Below are positions 50,875 to 61,798 of a DNA stretch of 64,000 bases, in pieces. The position numbers and the translations under genes are program-made. Numbering within the stretch: the stretch's first letter is position 1; each line of letters begins with the position of its first letter. Under the pieces are notes generated by a model, which did not search any database, was not told the DNA's origin, and saw only the letters and a list, made by a program, of their open reading frames with translations. This stretch comes from Fidelibacterota bacterium (GTDB lineage Bacteria > Fidelibacterota > Marinisomatia > SCGC-AAA003-L08 > JACNLC01), in the NCBI GenBank assembly GCA_013204025.1, contig JABMOW010000018.1:1-64000 (forward strand). The letters are read 5' to 3'.

Positions 50875-51300
50875 GTGTATCAAAACTTCGCACCCATAAT
50901 CATTTTCGTAACAATAGGGCTTCTTCTTGCAGGTGCTCTATTTATAGTTCAATCCCTAATTTCCCCGAAGTTTAATAAGGGAGGTGAGAAACTCGCCACC
51001 TATGAATGCGGGGAAGTTCCTGAGGGTTCCGCGTGGATCAAATTCAATATCCGATTTTACGTAATCGCGCTGGTATTTATCATTTTTGATGTGGAAGTGA
51101 TCTTCCTATATCCATGGGCGGTTGTGTATAAAAGCCTGGGTCTGGTCGCATTTGTAGAAATGATGATCTTCCTATTGATCCTCGTTGCAGGATTCGCATA
51201 CGTTTGGGTGAAAGATGACCTAAACTGGGTGAAGTTGAGTGTGAAATACGGAAAAGGACGGTACTCCGAACTGGCTGCGAAAGAAGAATCCTCACCATGA
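50875..51300 (+). CDS. nuoA: NADH-quinone oxidoreductase subunit A
   Basis: 141 residues from a GTG. Three membrane helices and the loop [20 protein letters not shown] (about residues 43-62) with its functional Cys are typical of NuoA, as is [15 protein letters not shown] in helix 2. It begins the complex I operon and overlaps nuoB by four bases. Confidence 0.95.
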
Positions 51301-51800
51301 AACTGACACTTCTAGAAAAATTCGATCAGGACAATATCATCATGGGCAAACTGGACGAGTTAATTAACTGGTCCCGGGCAAACTCACAATGGTATTTTCA
51401 ATTTGGACTAGCCTGTTGTGCGATTGAAATGATGGCAGCGGCTGCACCTCGCTATGACCTGGAACGGTTTGGTGCCATGCCCAGAGCTACTCCCCGACAA
51501 TCAGATGTAATGATTGTTGCGGGTACGGTCTCGTTGAAGATGGCGGAACGGGTAAAACGGCTCTATGAACAGATGGCGGACCCTAAATACGTGATCTCTA
51601 TGGGGAGCTGCTCAAATAGCGGTGGCCCATACTGGCAGTATGGCTATCATGTATTGAAAGGTGTCGATCAAATTATTCCCGTTGATATTTATATACCCGG
51701 CTGTCCTCCCAGACCGGAAGCGCTCGTTCAGGGGCTGCTTGAACTACGAGTAAAGATCCGAGAAGAAACACCGTTCCGGAAAACCACGGCAGCGGAATGA
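51297..51800 (+). CDS. nuoB: NADH-quinone oxidoreductase subunit B
   Basis: 167 residues. Four cysteines for cluster N2 are in place: [12 protein letters not shown] (two adjacent), GSCSNSGG and [10 protein letters not shown]. NuoB hands electrons from the last iron-sulfur cluster to quinone at the interface with NuoD. The four-base overlap with nuoA suggests coupling; a 54-base gap precedes nuoC. Confidence 0.96.
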
Positions 51801-51854
51801 TTATTTTTCTACTCCATCAATCAAAATTATTAATTTCAACCCATTATTAAGTCT

Positions 51855-52343
51855 ATGGATTTTGCAAATATTAAAAAAGTGCTTGACGTCAGATGTCCCG
51901 ATTTAATCGATACGGATGGGGATCGTCCTTCCATTATGGTAAAACCGGAGAGTTGGGGAATCGTTTCCAACCTCCTGAAGACCGATCCCGACCTCACTTT
52001 TGACAGTCTCATGTGCCTCAGTGGATTTGATCTGGTAGAGGATGATCATCTGGGCGTCGCCTATCATTTCTATTCCATGGACAAACGCCATGATTTAGAA
52101 GTCATCATTCGAACCCCGAAGGAGAATCCCAGTATACCGTCCATTGCCAATATCTGGCGTGCAGCAGACTGGCATGAGCGGGAAGCGTATGATATGTATG
52201 GAATCATCTTCGAGGGACATCCGGATTTAAAACGAATACTTCTACCTGACGACTGGGAGGGATTCCCACTTCGAAAGGACTATGTCCAGGCAGACACCTA
52301 CCAGGGCATCATCATTAAAAAAGATAAGACGTATTGGAAATGA
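51855..52343 (+). CDS. nuoC: NADH-quinone oxidoreductase subunit C
   Basis: 162 residues. The 30-kDa subunit signature is present around [31 protein letters not shown] (about residues 107-137), cited here only as location. It is a separate protein, not fused to NuoD. It overlaps nuoD by an ATGA. Confidence 0.94.
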
Positions 52344-53482
52344 GTACGAAACCGCATATTGATCAAAGTCTGGTAAAAACCGAAGAGATGGTGTTGAACA
52401 TGGGTCCACAGCATCCCAGCACTCATGGTGTCTTGCGGTTGAAAATTCATACCGATGGTGAGGTCGTCAGTAAAATAGAACCTATTATCGGATATCTCCA
52501 TCGGTGTTTCGAGAAACATTGCGAGCATCTTGGATATGAGCAGATCGTCCCGTTTACAGATCGATGTGATTACATTGCTTCTATGCACATGAATCACGGG
52601 TACGCCTTGGCGATGGAACGACTCATGGGTATTGAGGTGCCACCCCGCGTGGAATACATTCGGGTGATCGTTGGTGAACTACAGAGAATCGCCAGCCATT
52701 TGGTTGCACTGGGAACGTTCGGGCTGGATATCGGTGCGATAACACCGTTTACATGGATGATCCGTGACAGAGAGAGAATACTGGATTTATTCGAAAATCT
52801 GTGTGGCGCTCGATTACTTTACAATTATATCTGGGTGGGTGGTGTTTCTCATGACCTGCCTGAAAAATTCATCCGACGAACCAAAGAATTTATCGACTAT
52901 TTCACGCCACAGATGGATGAATTTGACCAACTTCTCACTTTTAATAAAATATTTATCGAACGAACTGCAGATGTGGGGATTTTACCTCCCGATGTTGCTA
53001 TTAACTATGGTGTGACAGGTCCCAGCCTTCGAGGGTCTGGTGTGAAATGGGATTTACGAAAAGACGAAGCATACTCTGCGTATCCTGAACTGGAATTTGA
53101 CGTCCCTGTAGGTACCGGAAAAATGGGTAGTGTTGGGGATTGTTGGGATCGATACTGGGTACGAATGTTAGAAATGCGCGAAAGTGTCCGGATTATCGAC
53201 CAGGCATTAAAATCCATTCCCGATGGTGATGTACGTGCCGCTGTTCCTAAGAAAGTTCGCCCACCGAAAGGCTCTGTTTATAGCCGATTTGAGACGGCTA
53301 GAGGCGAAATCGGGTATTACATTATCAGCGATGGTAAGAATATTCCTGTCCGTTTGAAGATGCGGTCTCCGGCGTTTTGTAATTTATCCGTCATCAGTGA
53401 GATTGCTGAAGGCTGGATGATCTCCGATCTTATTGCAATTCTGGGCAGTCTGGATATTGTATTGGGAGAAATTGACCGATGA
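52340..53482 (+). CDS. nuoD: NADH-quinone oxidoreductase subunit D
   Basis: 380 residues from the ATG at 52340, overlapping the nuoC stop; a TTG six bases earlier is less likely. [12 protein letters not shown] near residue 23 holds the quinone-site His. [13 protein letters not shown] and the C-terminal DIVLGEIDR end are standard for the 49-kDa subunit. Quinone reduction takes place at its interface with NuoB. It overlaps nuoH by four bases. Confidence 0.96.
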
Positions 53483-54552
53483 ACGGAATTTGGGCATCTA
53501 CTCTTGATATACTCACCTCGTATGGCTCGATGATCTCACTTGCCGGTGTAGGCATATTTCTAATAATGGCAGTGAACGCATTAGTCGCTGTGTATTTTGA
53601 ACGCAAAGTTTCGGCATTCATGCAAGACCGACTCGGTCCCATGGAAGTGGGGATTTTCGGATTCAAAGGCGGAAAGAAATTCTGGGGTGGTATTGGACAA
53701 ACTATTGCTGATACGGTAAAATTACTCACCAAAGAAGATATCCTCCCTGACAGCGCAGATAAAAAACTCATGATCCTGGCGCCATTTATTATTTTCATCG
53801 GTGCATTTGTCACATTTATCGGCGTTCCTTTCTCGTCTGTCCTGTTAGTATCAAATTTTAACATCGGGATATTCTACATCATCGCCATGAGTTCGGTGGG
53901 GGTGGTTGGGATCATTTTAGCGGGATGGGCTTCCAATAATAAATGGTCGCTGTACGGTTCTCTACGGTCTGCGGCACAGATCATTAGCTATGAAATTCCG
54001 GCGGGTTTGTCTCTGATTTTAGTGGTTTTGGTTGCAGGTAGTCTGAACATCCACGACATCGTGGGGTGGCAAGCAGATCATCGTTGGTTTATATTCCACT
54101 CACCTATGGCATTTTTGGCATTTTTCGTCTATTTTATATCTGGTGTTGCCGAAACCAATCGAACCCCTTTCGATATCCCTGAAGCGGAGTCCGAATTGGT
54201 TGCGGGATGGATGACTGAATATTCCGGATTTCGATGGGCGCTGTTTTTTCTGAGTGAATACGCCAACATGCTCATCGTTTGTATTTTGACGGCTGTTGTG
54301 TTTTTAGGCGGATGGCTCTCTCCAATGGCGATGTTTAATATTTTCCCTGAATCCTGGCTTATCTTTGATGGGATATGGTGGGGCGCATTCTGGATCATGT
54401 TTAAGGCCATCTTTCTCATTTTTGTGATGATGTGGTTCCGCTGGACATTCCCAAGGCTTCGTGTCGATCAGCTTATGTATCTATGTTGGAAAGTTCTCAT
54501 TCCGTTTGCATTAGTGAATCTGGTACTTGTGAGTATTTGGGAGCTGCTATGA
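53479..54552 (+). CDS. nuoH: NADH-quinone oxidoreductase subunit H
   Basis: 357 residues with eight membrane helices. [15 protein letters not shown] (about residues 35-49), [20 protein letters not shown] and the acidic loop that forms the quinone-chamber entrance are all present. It connects the hydrophilic and membrane arms. In many bacteria nuoE, nuoF and nuoG lie between nuoD and nuoH; here nuoH directly overlaps nuoD. Confidence 0.96.
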
Positions 54553-55871
54553 GCGAATATTTTGCAAATATCTTTTACGGCTTGAAATCATTCGCTGAAG
54601 GACTACAACTGACTATGCGCCACTTCCGTAATCGGAAGGATCTGGTAGCAACGCTGCAATATCCACACGAAAAGTGGCCCATTGAAGATCGCCATATCGG
54701 ATTCCCATTAGAAGAATACAATATCATCCGTTCACGCCTGAACGTAGACATCGATGACTGCATCGGTTGCCTTCAGTGCGAACGAGCCTGTCCGGTAGAC
54801 TGTATCAAGATTGAAACCATCAAACCGCCAAAAGGGAGTGATTTCGATTGCGGCATCACATCCAATGGAACGAAGATGAAAATGCTGGTAGCAAGATTTT
54901 CTATCGATATGACAGAGTGCATGTTCTGCAATCTGTGCACCTTCCCGTGTCCGGAAGATTGTATTTATATGGTAGGTGGACCCAATTCTTCAAAACATGA
55001 AATTGAATACGAATACGCCAGCCGTGATCGTGAATCTCTAATCTTTCAATTTGCGAATCCATCTGAAAGTGATGTTCTTGCTGTCGGTGGAGAGAATTAC
55101 CTCCGCGCAAAAGCAGGGTTGCCACCACTCGCACCGGAAGTCCCAGTAAAACCCGTTGAGACTGTTTCCACGGCTACTGAAAAACCGACACCAACCGCAG
55201 GTGAACCAGATGTAAAAGTCCTGAACGGTATTACCGATCGGATGGTTCGTGCTACGGCAAAAAAAGCCTTTATGGCTGCTGCTCGTGGAGGCAGTGATCT
55301 GGCAGCGATCGCCAAATCTATCCAAGCTGCGCTGGAAGAAGCCGGTAAGTTTACAGATGAAGCCAAAGCGGTTCTGGATTCTCTGGCAGTGACGCAGACA
55401 CCAACACCTGTCACTGTGAATGAGGTTTCTTCTGAAGCTAAACCAGACATTAAAACATTGAATGTGCTTGAAGATAAAATGGTGCGTGGAATGGCGAAGA
55501 AAATTTTCATGGCTGAAAGCCGTGGTGGGAAGTCTGCATCAGAGATGGTTGATGCTATCCTGGCCGGATTAAAGGAGGCAGATAAACTGACCCCTGAAAC
55601 GGAAGCCGTCGTTCGTCAACTGGCCCCAGAAGTACCTGTATCCACGCCGAAACCATCTGCACCGGTTACTGATTTTAATGTGAAGGTACTAAACGGGATC
55701 GAAGACCGTATGACTCGCGGATTGGCGAAAAAAGCATTCATGGCTGCACAGCGTGAAGGTAAATCTGCAAGTGAGATCATTCAAACTGTTCAGACAGCAT
55801 TATCCGAAGCGGATAAACTAACTGACGATGTGAAAACACTATTATTATCCATTGGAGGAGATAAGGCATGA
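54549..55871 (+). CDS. nuoI: NuoI with a long C-terminal triple-repeat extension
   Basis: 440 residues from the ATG that overlaps the nuoH stop; ordinary NuoI is about 160-180 residues. The first 190 are a normal NuoI. Cysteines 71, 74, 77 and 81 (CIGCLQCERAC) and 124, 127, 130 and 134 (CMFCNLCTFPC) bind the two [4Fe-4S] clusters N6a/N6b. A Pro/Val/Thr/Glu-rich linker follows. Then come three copies of a 59-residue module at about 221-279, 300-358 and 377-435, separated by similar linkers. The modules look helical and have no Cys. The extension is in frame without a break and overlaps nuoJ by four bases, so it is part of the protein and not an assembly artefact. I know no such extension in described NuoI proteins. 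Confidence 0.9.
   Translation: MSEYFANIFYGLKSFAEGLQLTMRHFRNRKDLVATLQYPHEKWPIEDRHIGFPLEEYNIIRSRLNVDIDDCIGCLQCERACPVDCIKIETIKPPKGSDFDCGITSNGTKMKMLVARFSIDMTECMFCNLCTFPCPEDCIYMVGGPNSSKHEIEYEYASRDRESLIFQFANPSESDVLAVGGENYLRAKAGLPPLAPEVPVKPVETVSTATEKPTPTAGEPDVKVLNGITDRMVRATAKKAFMAAARGGSDLAAIAKSIQAALEEAGKFTDEAKAVLDSLAVTQTPTPVTVNEVSSEAKPDIKTLNVLEDKMVRGMAKKIFMAESRGGKSASEMVDAILAGLKEADKLTPETEAVVRQLAPEVPVSTPKPSAPVTDFNVKVLNGIEDRMTRGLAKKAFMAAQREGKSASEIIQTVQTALSEADKLTDDVKTLLLSIGGDKA
55209..55853 (+). repeat. Three tandem coding repeats in the nuoI 3' half
   Basis: Copies of about 177 bases start near 55209, 55446 and 55677, 231-237 bases apart. They encode a shared core: (V/I)K.LN...D.M.R..AKK.FMA..R.G followed by an amphipathic helix and (A/K)L.EA.K.T. 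The last two are the closest to each other (RGGKSASE / REGKSASE), suggesting stepwise duplication. Confidence 0.9.
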
Positions 55872-56359
55872 GTGAAGTATTTTTCATCCTGATTGCCGCA
55901 ATCACCATCGCTTCCGCCATTTGGGTGGTTTTTTCGAGTAACCTGATTTATTCAGCGGTGGCACTGCTCTTCACACTTTTTGGTGTGGCTGGTCTCTACG
56001 TCTTTTTATATGCCGACTTTATTGCAGCCACGCAGGTAGTCGTCTATGTGGGCGGTATTCTTGTGCTGATCATATTTGGAGTGATGCTCACAAACAAAAT
56101 TGCTGATAACCGGATTTCTCATTCCAGTCGGCCCAGATTCATGGCTGGTGTTATTAGTTTCTTTATCTTCGTGTTGGTCATGACCGTGATTTTTACAACC
56201 ACATGGCATACAGGCGAGGAGCAGATAGCCACAGCCACTGTAAATACCATTGGGGAAATGATTCTTACCACCTATCTGTTACCCTTTGAAGTCGCCTCTC
56301 TGGTTTTACTGGCAGCGCTCATGGGATCTGCGTTATTGTCGAGGAAAAAACATGGATAA
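55868..56359 (+). CDS. nuoJ: NADH-quinone oxidoreductase subunit J
   Basis: 163 residues with five membrane helices. The helix 3 segment YADFIAATQVVVYVGGILVLIIF is the typical NuoJ pi-bulge region (residues about 40-62, stated as location). It starts inside the nuoI stop and overlaps nuoK by eight bases. Confidence 0.94.
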   Translation: MSEVFFILIAAITIASAIWVVFSSNLIYSAVALLFTLFGVAGLYVFLYADFIAATQVVVYVGGILVLIIFGVMLTNKIADNRISHSSRPRFMAGVISFFIFVLVMTVIFTTTWHTGEEQIATATVNTIGEMILTTYLLPFEVASLVLLAALMGSALLSRKKHG

Positions 56360-56660
56360 TCTCACTTCATACCTGGTCATCAGCGGAATTTTATTTTCGT
56401 TGGGAATTTTCGGTGTGATGACCCGCAGGAACGGTGTTGCGATCCTCATGGGTATCGAACTGATCCTGAATTCTGCAAGTCTAAATTTCGTGGCGTTTAA
56501 TCGTTTCGGAGGCATGCATCGTCTGGATGGCCATGTCTTCAGTATTTTTATCATTGTCCTGGCAGCCGCCGAAGCAGCTGTCGCGCTGGCTATCATTATC
56601 AACTTATTCAAAAACCTGGAGACCGTAAATGTTGACCAGGCAGACAGCATGAAAGGATAA
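56352..56660 (+). CDS. nuoK: NADH-quinone oxidoreductase subunit K
   Basis: 102 residues, the usual size, from the ATG at 56352. Three helices include the conserved glutamates (MGIELILNSASLNFV and AAAEAAVALAI) of the proton path. It overlaps nuoJ by eight bases. Confidence 0.94.
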   Translation: MDNLTSYLVISGILFSLGIFGVMTRRNGVAILMGIELILNSASLNFVAFNRFGGMHRLDGHVFSIFIIVLAAAEAAVALAIIINLFKNLETVNVDQADSMKG

Positions 56661-56662
56661 AT

Positions 56663-58717
56663 GTGAATCCGCCTATCATTTTTGCATTATCCATATTATT
56701 CTTACCTCTGGTATCGTTTATTTTCCAGATTTTCATCGGATGGCGTATCGGCCGTTCTGCCCATTGGGTATCGCTTATTTGTTTAGGCGGTGTACTCGCA
56801 TTATCGTTGAGCTTTTTCGCTAATGCCTTCCTTATTGAAGGATATCCTATCTTGGAGGAATCCGTTACGTGGTTTTCTACAGGTGAGTTTACCATTGCTA
56901 TGGGATTCAACATTGACCGGGTAGCTGCTATCATGCTGGTGGTGGTATCGCTGATTTCTTTTCTGGTCCATGTGTACTCGACTGAATATTTAAAAGGGGA
57001 TCCGCGGTACAACCGATATTTTGGTTATCTGGGTCTTTTCACATTTTCCATGAACGGAATCGTTCTGGCAGACAATCTGGTAATGATGTACGTTTTCTGG
57101 GAGTTGGTGGGCTTGAGCTCTTACCTCCTCATCGGGTTTTGGTTCGAAAAGCCGTCTGCCGCAGATGCGGGAAAAAAGGCATTCCTTACCAATCGGGTAG
57201 GAGACATCGGTATGTTTATCGGTATCATGATCTTGTTCTTCCTGTTTGGTACCGTTAATATTGAAGATATCGCTTACGAAGTGAGCCTGGGGATGGCTGA
57301 TGGTTACATGTCATTGTTAACCGCAGCCGGTATTCTGGTTTTCATGGGCGCAGTGGGGAAATCTGCACAGTTTCCGCTTCACATCTGGCTACCCGATGCG
57401 ATGGAAGGTCCCACTCCGGTGAGTGCGCTTATCCATGCGGCGACGATGGTTGCAGCCGGTGTTTACATGGTAGTCCGAATATTTGCATTCCTTACGCCAA
57501 CGGCATTGCAGTTCATTGCGGTGGTGGGGGCTGTAACCGCACTGATGGCAGCGATTATTGCCATCACACAAAATGATATCAAACGGGTATTGGCATACTC
57601 AACGGTGAGTCAATTGGGGTACATGATCATGGCTCTGGGGGTGGGTGCATATCAGGCGGGGTTCTTTCACTTAACGACTCACGCCATGTTCAAAGCATGT
57701 TTGTTTTTGGCAAGCGGATCTGTCATCCATGCCATGCACCATGCGCTGCATCACAAAGGCGATCATGACACTGATCCGCAGGATATGCGAAATATGGGGG
57801 GGTTGAAGTCCAAATTACCTGTCACCTACTGGACTATGCTCATCGCCACACTGGCGCTATCCGGTGTGCCGTTATTTTCAGGATTTCTATCTAAAGATGC
57901 AATTCTCGCAGGGACATTAGCCTATTATCACGCCCATCATGGATGGACAATCTTTCTACCCATCGCTGGTTTTGGAGCTGCTGTCATCACTGCATTTTAC
58001 ATGTTCAGACTAATCTTTATGACATTTCATGGTGAACCTGCCAAACCGGATGTTCATGCCCATGTTCATGAGAATCCACTGCCAATGACCGCACCATTAG
58101 TGGTCCTGGCTTTTCTGAGTATCGCCATTGTATTCACGCTACCGGGATTAAATCCGATCGTCAATCATGGATGGTTTACCCATCTGGTGACCACAGGTGA
58201 AAATTATGCCGGATTAGTGATGGAAGAAACGGTAGAGGGTATCCATCATGCCCATAACGCTGCCATGACCATTTCTCTGATTGTGGCGACGCTGGGTATT
58301 CTTTTTGCCACCTTCGTTTACTACTTGAAAAAAGTGGATGCAGGCAAGTTGGCAAAAATGATGAACCGGGTGGGATTGTACAATCTGTCTTTCAATAAAT
58401 TTTATATCGATGAAATTTACGAAGCGGTTCTCTATAAACCCTTTTTCTGGTGGTGCAATGTGTTCTCCAAAATCGACTGGGATTACTACGACCAGAAGTT
58501 TATCGATGGTTGGGGCTGGGTCACGATGAAAATATCCGAAGCATCTGGATATTCAGATTACAACTGGCTGGATCAGAAAGTCGTGGACGGATTTGGAAAA
58601 CTGACACAGTATTTCAGCAAAGAATTAAAACAAACACAGTCGGGTGTCATCCAGAATTATGTTATGGGTGGCGTCTTTGGGCTATTAATTATTCTGATCA
58701 TTTTTCAATCGATATGA
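56663..58717 (+). CDS. nuoL: NADH-quinone oxidoreductase subunit L
   Basis: 684 residues from a GTG with AAAGGA upstream. It is an antiporter-type subunit: FWELVGLSSYLLIGFWF (catalytic Glu in helix 5), GAVGKSAQFPLHIWLPDAM (Lys of helix 7) and SALIHAATMVAAGVYM. The long C-terminal part, with the lateral helix and final anchor, is present. It forms the distal proton channel. Confidence 0.96.
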   Translation: MNPPIIFALSILFLPLVSFIFQIFIGWRIGRSAHWVSLICLGGVLALSLSFFANAFLIEGYPILEESVTWFSTGEFTIAMGFNIDRVAAIMLVVVSLISFLVHVYSTEYLKGDPRYNRYFGYLGLFTFSMNGIVLADNLVMMYVFWELVGLSSYLLIGFWFEKPSAADAGKKAFLTNRVGDIGMFIGIMILFFLFGTVNIEDIAYEVSLGMADGYMSLLTAAGILVFMGAVGKSAQFPLHIWLPDAMEGPTPVSALIHAATMVAAGVYMVVRIFAFLTPTALQFIAVVGAVTALMAAIIAITQNDIKRVLAYSTVSQLGYMIMALGVGAYQAGFFHLTTHAMFKACLFLASGSVIHAMHHALHHKGDHDTDPQDMRNMGGLKSKLPVTYWTMLIATLALSGVPLFSGFLSKDAILAGTLAYYHAHHGWTIFLPIAGFGAAVITAFYMFRLIFMTFHGEPAKPDVHAHVHENPLPMTAPLVVLAFLSIAIVFTLPGLNPIVNHGWFTHLVTTGENYAGLVMEETVEGIHHAHNAAMTISLIVATLGILFATFVYYLKKVDAGKLAKMMNRVGLYNLSFNKFYIDEIYEAVLYKPFFWWCNVFSKIDWDYYDQKFIDGWGWVTMKISEASGYSDYNWLDQKVVDGFGKLTQYFSKELKQTQSGVIQNYVMGGVFGLLIILIIFQSI

Positions 58718-58749
58718 TTGACAAATAAGGAAATAGAAGTAGGATACTT

Positions 58750-60348
58750 ATGAGTTCACATATACTTTCATGGTTAGTGTTTATTCCCATCATTGGAGCG
58801 TTGGTATCAATCGTTTATCAGCAAGCTGCCAAGGTGAAGGGACTGGATGCCGAGGTTGTTGCAGGCACCCATAAATGGATTGCTGCCGTTGCTACCGGTA
58901 TTCAATTGCTGTTCGCCGTGTGGTTGTACACGATGTACGATCCCGCTGGTGGTATTCAGTTTCAGGAAAAATTTTCGTGGATCCCTCAATTCAACATTGA
59001 TTATTTCCTGGGTGCAGACGGTTTGAGTATGCCCATGATCCTGTTGACAGCGTTATTATCATTTATCGGCGTGGTATCAAGTTGGAAGATTAAAAAATCG
59101 CCTTTCGGATATTTTGCCATGTTCCTGCTATTGGACACTGGAATGATGGGCGTTTTTGTTTCATTGGACTTCTTCCTGTTTTATATTTTCTGGGAAGTGA
59201 TGCTCCTGCCCATGTATTTCCTCATCGGGATATGGGGAGGACCGCAACGTCAGTATGCCGCTATTAAATTCTTTTTATACACATTGTTCGGTTCCGTTTT
59301 CATGCTACTAGCGATGTTGGGACTTTATTTCTACGCCGACCCGCATACGTTTAATCTGATCGCCCTGATCCAATCTGCTTCATCGATTGATGCAACGATC
59401 TGGGGGATAAATGTTCAAGTACTCATCTGGGTAGCGTTGTTTATCGGATTTGCCATCAAAGTACCGATTGTCCCGTTCCACACTTGGTTACCACTGGCAC
59501 ACGTTGAAGCACCCACGGCCATATCGGTCATACTTGCTGGTGTACTTTTGAAGATGGGGACGTATGGACTCCTCCGAATCAATTATCCATTATTCCCGGA
59601 ACTGGTGTACTGGTTTGCCACCTTCCTTGCGGTATTGGGTGTGATCAATATTATCTGGGGCGCATTGAATGCCATTGCCCAGGTGGATTTGAAAAAGATG
59701 GTGGCGTACTCCTCTGTGAGTCACATGGGATATGTACTTTTAGGGATGGCGGCACTGATCTCTGAAAGTCCTGCCGGTGCACAAGCGGGGATCAACGGTG
59801 CGTTGATGCAGATGTTCAATCACGGTACCATTACGGCAATGCTCTTTTTACTGGTGGGTGTCCTCTACGATCAAGCCCATCATCGTTATATTTTTTACCC
59901 GAAGGATTATCATGATCCTAAACTTGCGGGTCAACCGGGATTTGGCGGACTCGGTGCAAAATTGCCCATCTATTCTGCTTTTGTTGCCTTCGCATTCTTT
60001 GCAGGGTTGGGACTTCCAGCTCTATCCGGGTTTATCAGTGAAGTGATGTGTTTTATCGGTGGATTCAGTGTTTTCAGAACGCTGACAATCATCGGTACGC
60101 TGGGTATTCTGCTGAACGCCATTTATTTCCTCCGTGCGTATCGTTATGTTTTCATGGGGCCACTCAATGAAAAGTATGCCGGGTTGAAGGACATGACAGG
60201 AAGAGAAATGTTTACGCTTATCCCATTGGGTATTTTGGTGTTGCTATTTGGTGTATATCCGGCACCATTGCTGGACATGATCGCACCCACCATGAATGCA
60301 CTTGTGGATCTGATCCATTCAGCCGGTTCAATAATGGGGATCCAGTAA
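58750..60348 (+). CDS. nuoM: NADH-quinone oxidoreductase subunit M
   Basis: 532 residues with about 14 helices. Antiporter-like features: FYIFWEVMLLPMYFLIGIWGG with the key Glu, FAIKVPIVPFHTWLPLAHVEAPTA with the key Lys, and KMVAYSSVSHMGYVLLG. It forms the middle proton channel. It starts 32 bases after nuoL. Confidence 0.96.
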   Translation: MSSHILSWLVFIPIIGALVSIVYQQAAKVKGLDAEVVAGTHKWIAAVATGIQLLFAVWLYTMYDPAGGIQFQEKFSWIPQFNIDYFLGADGLSMPMILLTALLSFIGVVSSWKIKKSPFGYFAMFLLLDTGMMGVFVSLDFFLFYIFWEVMLLPMYFLIGIWGGPQRQYAAIKFFLYTLFGSVFMLLAMLGLYFYADPHTFNLIALIQSASSIDATIWGINVQVLIWVALFIGFAIKVPIVPFHTWLPLAHVEAPTAISVILAGVLLKMGTYGLLRINYPLFPELVYWFATFLAVLGVINIIWGALNAIAQVDLKKMVAYSSVSHMGYVLLGMAALISESPAGAQAGINGALMQMFNHGTITAMLFLLVGVLYDQAHHRYIFYPKDYHDPKLAGQPGFGGLGAKLPIYSAFVAFAFFAGLGLPALSGFISEVMCFIGGFSVFRTLTIIGTLGILLNAIYFLRAYRYVFMGPLNEKYAGLKDMTGREMFTLIPLGILVLLFGVYPAPLLDMIAPTMNALVDLIHSAGSIMGIQ

Positions 60349-60349
60349 C

Positions 60350-61798
60350 GTGTCCAACCTGTTGAGCTTGTCTGATTATTTGCCTGAAATGATCCTGTTG
60401 GGAGTGATCCTCATCGCAATTGTGATGGATTTAGTCCCTGCAACAAAGCGATTCACCAAAGGATTTATCCTCGTGGGATTGATTCTCGTGGCAGCCTTCC
60501 TGTATCAAGGCGATACCTCTGCGTCATCCTTATTCATGGGGATGTCTGCACATGATCCGTTTGGTACTTTCTTCAAATGGTTGTTCATCATTGCTACGTT
60601 TTTCGTCGTCCTCATCGCAAAATATGATGACGGTATGGATCAATCCATCGCGGCTGAATTTAATATCCTTCTGCTGATTGTCATGTTTGGACTATTTCTC
60701 ATGGCGACAGCCACCAATCTGGTGATGGTTTATCTAGCCATTGAGACGGTGAGTATTTCATCGTACATCCTTGCAGGCATGTTGCGGAACGATATCAAAT
60801 CCAATGAGGCGTCTCTCAAATATGTGATATTCGGTGCGTTTGCGTCGGGACTCATGCTCTACGGATTTAGCTGGCTGTACGGATTATCAGGCTCTACTGA
60901 TTTGACGATTATTCGGGATGTACTGATGACACAAGAAGGTCCCGTGTTTGTGGTGTACATATCCATTCTCATGGTATTGGTGGGGATCGGATACAAACTA
61001 TCCATGGTGCCATTCCATTACTGGACGCCCGATGTATACGAAGGCGCGCCAACTCCGTTGACGGCATATCTGTCTGTGGCACCCAAAGCAGCAGGACTAG
61101 CGTTGATGATCCGCTTTTTCACCATGACATTCACCGATGGCGCAGGTGAGACCGTTGCCAATGTTGACTGGACCGTTCTTATCGCAGTGTTATCTGCCAT
61201 CACCATGACGGTGGGGAATCTGTTAGCGCTTCGTCAGGAAAACGTGAAACGACTGTTTGCCTTTTCATCTATCGCTCACGCCGGATATATGTTGATGGTC
61301 ATCCCGGTGATCAGCACGGATTCCAGCGCGGCTATCATGTTTTACCTGGTGCCGTATCTGTTCATGAATCTGGGTGCTTTTTTCGTCGCCATTGCGGTGT
61401 CAAACCATACGGGTTCTTATGATCTGGCTGGCTGGAAAGGTCTGGGCAAACGAACACCGTTGCTCGCGGCACTGATGGTCATTTTTCTGGTGTCTCTCAC
61501 GGGATTACCGCCTACTGCCGGGTTCATCGGCAAAGTCTATTTATTTTCGGTTCTCATCAAACATCAGCAGTTTTATTGGCTGGCAGTTGTGGCGGTCATT
61601 AACAGTGTTATCGCGCTGTTTTACTATTTCCGTATTGTGAGGGAAATGTATTTCACCGATTCAGATGATACCGAACCCTTACGTCCTCATCCCATACTCA
61701 CATGGAGTATCATCTCCTGCGTCATCCCGGTGCTTGTACTGGGCCTGTACTGGAGCCCCGTCATCGACTGGGTCACCGCTTCTCTAAAAATGTTCTAA
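60350..61798 (+). CDS. nuoN: NADH-quinone oxidoreductase subunit N
   Basis: 482 residues from a GTG one base after the nuoM stop. Antiporter-like features: YLAIETVSISSYILAGM (Glu), GIGYKLSMVPFHYWTPDVYEGAPT (Lys) and KRLFAFSSIAHAGYMLM. It is the last gene of the operon; no clear terminator hairpin follows. The next 220 bases (61799-62018) hold no gene. Confidence 0.96.
   Translation: MSNLLSLSDYLPEMILLGVILIAIVMDLVPATKRFTKGFILVGLILVAAFLYQGDTSASSLFMGMSAHDPFGTFFKWLFIIATFFVVLIAKYDDGMDQSIAAEFNILLLIVMFGLFLMATATNLVMVYLAIETVSISSYILAGMLRNDIKSNEASLKYVIFGAFASGLMLYGFSWLYGLSGSTDLTIIRDVLMTQEGPVFVVYISILMVLVGIGYKLSMVPFHYWTPDVYEGAPTPLTAYLSVAPKAAGLALMIRFFTMTFTDGAGETVANVDWTVLIAVLSAITMTVGNLLALRQENVKRLFAFSSIAHAGYMLMVIPVISTDSSAAIMFYLVPYLFMNLGAFFVAIAVSNHTGSYDLAGWKGLGKRTPLLAALMVIFLVSLTGLPPTAGFIGKVYLFSVLIKHQQFYWLAVVAVINSVIALFYYFRIVREMYFTDSDDTEPLRPHPILTWSIISCVIPVLVLGLYWSPVIDWVTASLKMF

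Follow-up and report, generated by a model that had tools for sequence, protein, structure and literature searches.

Helical bead domains on NuoI of an 11-subunit complex I in Candidatus Neomarinimicrobiota: a possible flexible tether for a soluble electron donor

Getz et al. 2018 distinguished two forms of complex I in Marinimicrobia, nNDH and cNDH, and predicted a donor such as flavodoxin for nNDH (PMC6143742). An 11-subunit complex I without NuoE, NuoF and NuoG (NuoEFG) is also found in Desulfitobacterium (PMC11238625). Passages of these two papers give the same gene set, nuoABCDHIJKLMN, and propose ferredoxin or flavodoxin for a donor that is not known; no tail on NuoI or NuoC, no bead domain and no NuoI-flavodoxin fusion is mentioned in these passages. 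In the cyanobacterial NDH-1, which likewise lacks NuoEFG, ferredoxin binds to NdhI, and extra polypeptides close to NdhI (NdhS, NdhV and NdhO) help it to reach cluster N6a (PMC7021789). Complex I of Campylobacter jejuni uses flavodoxin (Weerakoon and Olson 2008, cited in PMC6143742). The donor of the widespread 11-subunit complex is a long-standing question.

The window, which is the whole 64,000-nucleotide stretch of DNA analyzed here, belongs to a metagenome-assembled genome (MAG) of Candidatus Neomarinimicrobiota (3.1 Mb, 163 contigs, 88% complete). It carries nuoABCDHIJKLMN at 50875-61798, and nuoE, nuoF and nuoG are absent from the operon, in agreement with the preliminary description of this DNA; the encoded complex I thus has 11 subunits (nNDH). 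The genes are located as follows:

50875..51300, plus strand, nuoA
51297..51800, plus strand, nuoB
51855..52343, plus strand, nuoC, without a bead
52334..53482, plus strand, nuoD
53479..54552, plus strand, nuoH
54549..55871, plus strand, nuoI coding sequence, 440 aa, NuoI core and three-bead tail, ATGA overlaps with nuoH and nuoJ
55868..56359, plus strand, nuoJ
56352..56660, plus strand, nuoK, its ATG lying inside the ORF 56286-56660
56663..58717, plus strand, nuoL
58750..60348, plus strand, nuoM
60350..61798, plus strand, nuoN

The nuoI gene is a single open frame of 440 codons, with the four-base overlaps on both sides, and its position between nuoH and nuoJ fits its identity as NuoI. The extension had been judged genuine from its place between these overlaps, and the frame is indeed open throughout. 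A frameshift or an assembly join, which had been named as a possible refutation, is ruled out because about 30 related genomes have homologous tails of one to five beads. Outside the operon no bona fide NuoF was found in the window genome at its 88% completeness, and a 784-aa NuoE-NuoF-like fusion scored below the TIGR01959 cut-off. This fusion adjoins a 536-aa NuoG/GltD-like protein (L164:4719-8638, G000:C145), and the pair resembles an NADH:ferredoxin-type oxidoreductase.

The predicted NuoI protein consists of a core and a tail, with the following parts:

54549..55121, plus strand, NuoI core, residues 1-191, with two 4Fe-4S motifs (Pfam Fer4; TIGR01971; Foldseek)
55122..55208, plus strand, linker 1, Pro/Thr-rich, residues 192-220 (AlphaFold2 pLDDT mostly below 50)
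55209..55391, plus strand, bead 1, residues 221-281 (AlphaFold2 helices 222-227, 231-246, 251-264 and 270-281, pLDDT 93-97; profile match)
55392..55445, plus strand, linker 2, residues 282-299 (AlphaFold2)
55446..55622, plus strand, bead 2, residues 300-358 (AlphaFold2 helices 301-306, 310-325, 330-343 and 349-356)
55623..55676, plus strand, linker 3, residues 359-376 (AlphaFold2)
55677..55856, plus strand, bead 3, residues 377-436 (AlphaFold2 helices 378-383, 387-402, 407-420 and 426-435; A3 profile, E 3.8e-5)

The earlier placement of the end of the NuoI domain near residue 190 agrees with these boundaries, the core being followed in frame by Pro-, Thr- and Ala-rich linkers and by the three repeats. 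The core has two CxxCxxCxxxCP motifs, at C71-C81 and C124-C134, and the cysteines at 71, 74, 77 and 81 and at 124, 127, 130 and 134 are invariant among 37 relatives. TIGR01971 was the top NCBIfam match (E 4e-18), although its 65 bits lie below the curated cut-off of 113 bits; the low score probably reflects a greater distance between the two cluster motifs. Foldseek searches with the whole model were dominated by the core and returned NuoI/NdhI chains, the best of which was the cyanobacterial NdhI 6l7o_I. It should be mentioned that both cluster motifs are closed by CPxDC (54759-54965, residues 71-139). This adds two further cysteines, C85 and C138, which are invariant in the 37 relatives and absent from the 14-subunit NuoI of genome G002 (L183).

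The three repeats are clearly related to each other, with pairwise local alignment scores of 133-156 against a shuffle mean of about 25 and a maximum of 51 (1000 shuffles; z 23-28). With 37 sequences of the phylum as alignment input, AlphaFold2 predicted each repeat as a compact bead of one short and three longer helices with pLDDT of 91-97, separated by linkers that fell below 50 and appear disordered. In the same model the NuoI core was poorly predicted (no clusters, shallow alignment), and the bead helices were confident. The repeats had been expected to be helical and to lack cysteines; they are predicted as separate helical domains, and the extension contains no cysteine. The module had been given as 59 residues long, which fits the bead itself (59-61 residues) but not the repeat period of 77-79 residues. 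A conserved core including KSASE had also been proposed, and it stands in part, since copy 1 is without the KSASE stretch. Among close relatives in family f2, dN/dS was 0.06-0.18 for the beads, 0.27-0.62 for the linkers and 0.03 for the NuoI core, the last from one computable pair. The beads are under purifying selection and the linkers much less so. From the confident fold and the low dN/dS of the beads we therefore regard the tail as a string of folded, selected beads. The net charge of each bead is about 0 to +1, and the core helix within it, DRxxRxKAKxxxxKAKR, is basic, with a mean of +3.6 to +4.6 over 27 residues. Electrostatic fishing of ferredoxin by basic beads was considered and rejected, as whole beads are near neutral.

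In the E2 component of 2-oxoacid dehydrogenases, small lipoyl and subunit-binding domains in variable copy number are borne on flexible Ala/Pro-rich linkers. The NuoI tail likewise places small folded beads, in variable copy number, on flexible linkers, but the bead has no lipoyl or binding-domain motif and no Pfam match.

No Pfam or NCBIfam entry matched the bead over its curated cut-off, searches of the PDB gave no credible relative, and there was no match to RNA-, DNA- or lipid-binding families. An apparent similarity to TALE repeats (E 4e-24) proved to be a sum over 17 repeats whose best single i-Evalue was 79, and matches to designed helical-repeat proteins were similarly sums of many sub-significant repeat matches. 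The bead was absent from the plasmid and viral collections searched. A search of genome contigs with P0001 returned records of Neomarinimicrobiota, plus other bacteria in which only the NuoI core matched. The earlier view that the module was not a known one thus holds for these databases and for the literature, in which no description of it was found; with partial literature coverage, no paper on NuoI tails or NuoI-flavodoxin fusions was found either. The bead may represent a new domain family, which in these limited searches was seen in a single marine phylum.

To treat the bead as an extension of NuoI, as was done at first, is correct for the window's order but too narrow, as it is also found on NuoC and on an SRPBCC protein. 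In the latter, the C-terminus carries two to four repeats of the same core motif, N.I.DR..R.KAK....KAKR. The A4 and A3 profiles aligned in hhalign with a probability of 98.3 (E 2e-14, 46% identity over 28 columns), and a profile of the NuoC/SRPBCC type recovered the window NuoI beads (E 3.8e-5). Judged by these profiles, the beads of NuoC and SRPBCC proteins belong to the same family as the NuoI bead. In the NuoI bead, a short helix is followed by the core helix and two more helices, whereas in the NuoC/SRPBCC bead a helix precedes the core instead; the two types look as if they had been circularly permuted within the array.

The SRPBCC host matches Polyketide_cyc2 (PF10604, E 4e-10), has a START/PYR-receptor-like fold and in most families carries an N-terminal transmembrane helix. 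In family f11 (L158, L159, L171-L177) it has an extra N-terminal domain and no transmembrane helix. The f11 gene adjoins Rieske/cytochrome b genes and/or the heme-A and oxidase-assembly genes CtaA-SCO-CtaB in all nine loci (with Pfam support for L158), and in f5, f6, f7 and f12 it is not found beside respiratory genes. Two bead host types coexist in f11 and in part of f6. The SRPBCC protein was rejected as an obligate partner, since the window's order has no SRPBCC-bead protein. A further host was seen in genome G121 (L181:3037-3735), a Cys-rich protein of 233 aa with no family match and one NuoI-type bead at its end; no counterpart of it turned up elsewhere in the window's order. No bead was found on any ferredoxin, flavodoxin or oxidoreductase.

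NuoI was recovered from 34 of the 41 genomes of the window's order. Contig-edge cases aside, it bears one to five beads in all but two of them, G044, which has no tail, and G160, which has flavodoxin domains. Across the phylum, beads occur at 35 of 80 nuo loci, on NuoI or on NuoC and never on both. C-terminal beads on NuoI are found in the window's order and once in a distant family, f19; families f6 and f11 have N-terminal beads on NuoC, in one or two copies. A tree was built from concatenated NuoD, NuoH and NuoI core, in which f19 forms a long branch; the presence of beads requires four changes on it for NuoI and two for NuoC. Isolated flagged ORFs aside, the other Nuo subunits at the nuo loci of the phylum have no comparable extension. 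NuoI of family f20 (L131-L147) has an unrelated tail of 100-170 disordered residues rich in Ala, Glu, Pro and Thr, with no beads. Long N-terminal extensions of NuoC are represented in another lineage by NCBIfam NF005832 (PRK07735, 430 positions), with about 300 positions before the NuoC domain. This architecture resembles that of bead-bearing NuoC, but the NuoC at L103:10092-11051 aligned only weakly through the extension.

A second, adjacent operon with nuoE, nuoF and nuoG is present in several bead-bearing f3 genomes, in f5, f7, f12 and f15 and in one f6 genome. The 14-subunit complex was free of beads on both NuoC (14 loci) and NuoI (4 loci: L149, L150, L152, L183). Because genomes with two complexes never bear beads on the 14-subunit NuoC or NuoI, the bead follows the EFG-less complex and not the loss of EFG from the genome. 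The relation is one-way: the bead is dispensable, since many EFG-less operons have none (f5, f7-f10, f12-f16, part of f6, and G044). The expectation that the module tracks nuoEFG loss accordingly fails for genomes, given that f3 has both complexes and G044 neither EFG nor beads, and holds for operons, beads being confined to the EFG-less one.

The NuoI ORF of G160 (L193 / L228, G160:C33; L228:8989-11037, 683 aa) has no bead. At the bead position, after the core and joined by low-complexity linkers, it has two intact long-chain flavodoxin domains that are 77% identical. The tail matched TIGR01752 with 374 bits for the two domains and 195 for one (cut-off 147) and PF00258 with E 1e-43, and the FMN loops, GSSTGNSE and GSTTGNSE, have (S/T)TGNSE in both. 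The surrounding operon is intact, A-B-C-D-H-I-J-K-L-M-N, and G160 is nested inside the bead-bearing f2 clade (SH-aLRT 85 and 94). The fusion is known from this one MAG; the divergence between the two flavodoxin copies and the completeness of the operon speak against a join made in assembly. The flavodoxin is of the donor type long suspected for such complexes and stands where relatives bear beads; presumably it feeds N6a. Both here and in Campylobacter jejuni the complex would be fed by flavodoxin and not by NADH. The Campylobacter flavodoxin is diffusible, whereas the two of G160 are covalently fused to NuoI.

Taken with the distribution of the beads, the fusion suggests that the NuoI tail may be a flexible beads-on-a-string tether at the electron-entry side of the 11-subunit complex. 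Each bead would be a small four-helix protein-binding domain that raises the local concentration of ferredoxin, or of an enzyme carrying reduced ferredoxin, near the distal N6a in NuoI, so that tethering would take the place of the permanent attachment of NuoEFG. We give nearly even chances to this reading as a whole, in which the string concentrates a soluble donor near N6a. The suggestion that the tail docks an electron donor gains from the fusion at the same position; that the beads themselves bind the donor, or whatever carries it, is here inferred. More tentatively, a mobile docking cassette for donor capture may have been set independently on NuoI and NuoC, one lineage having exchanged it for a covalent NuoI-flavodoxin-flavodoxin arm, a tethered swinging carrier. 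The helpers of cyanobacterial NDH-1 would work alike, but they are small subunits in their own right (one is SH3-like), whereas the beads are helical and fused to NuoI or NuoC, and no sequence relation was found between the two. In the window genome ferredoxin would be the likelier donor, because no FldA-type flavodoxin match was found there, three genes for 2-oxoacid:ferredoxin oxidoreductases are present (such enzymes occur in 38 of the 41 genomes of the order), and the NuoEF-like and NuoG/GltD-like pair is encoded. Docking specific for flavodoxin was rejected, as free FldA does not follow the beads (genomes of f1, f3 and genus g5 lack it).

As the main rival, the bead could be a general scaffold of the respiratory chain. 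By binding a common partner, or one another, beads would link the SRPBCC protein to the EFG-less complex I, and perhaps both to complex III or an oxidase, in a supercomplex or for quinone handling. We think this rather unlikely. In its favor, NuoI, NuoC and an SRPBCC protein of the lipid-binding type share the core motif, every f11 SRPBCC-bead gene has respiratory neighbors, and two host types occur together in f11 and part of f6. The SRPBCC protein, the other major bead host, is also not an obvious electron donor, which counts against a donor tether, as do the lack of beads on ferredoxins, flavodoxins and oxidoreductases, the many EFG-less operons without beads and the single MAG behind the flavodoxin fusion. 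A scaffold, for its part, is difficult to reconcile with the absence of SRPBCC-bead proteins from the window's order, with the many genomes that have one bead host only, and with the f5, f6, f7 and f12 SRPBCC genes that lie away from respiratory genes, and it leaves both the restriction to the EFG-less complex and the flavodoxin replacement unexplained. Scaffold and donor tether could both hold, provided that what the bead binds is a redox partner common to the two.

The basic core helix and the mostly membrane-anchored SRPBCC host might instead point to a target not concerned with electron input, such as membrane lipid, nucleic acid or an assembly or localization factor; near-neutral whole beads and the lack of matches to RNA-, DNA- or lipid-binding families make this improbable. 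It is still less probable that the beads take over from NuoG or NuoE/F by stabilizing or capping the hydrophilic arm at its exposed tip. Their confinement to the EFG-less complex, on two hydrophilic-arm subunits, would suit such a cap, but a bead number of 0 to 5, long disordered linkers, the closely related beadless complex of G044 and the flavodoxin replacement would not; the earlier idea that the tail replaces contacts of NuoG is likewise unsupported in view of the linkers and the copy number. A near-neutral addition peculiar to the lineage, with no function of its own, could account for the variable copy number, the loss in G044 and the unrelated f20 tail at the same place, yet it seems least probable of all, given that every intact NuoI of the order apart from G044 and the flavodoxin fusion has kept the tail, that bead dN/dS is low and the fold confident, and that the same bead was fused independently to NuoC.

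If the donor-tether reading is right, the natural NuoI-flavodoxin fusion would name both a donor and its entry point, and the beads would offer a purifiable bait for the donor in other lineages. It would also suggest a route by which the NADH module joined complex I, with a flexible tether for a soluble donor first and a fixed module later.

In f5, f7, f12 and f16 (L104, L111, L113, L115, L119, L121, L122, L127), the 11-subunit operon lacks nuoB between nuoA and nuoC. A displaced nuoB (70-73% identical) is found elsewhere; in G012, G068, G101 and G110 it shares a contig with the SRPBCC-bead gene, at a distance of about 30-46 kb.
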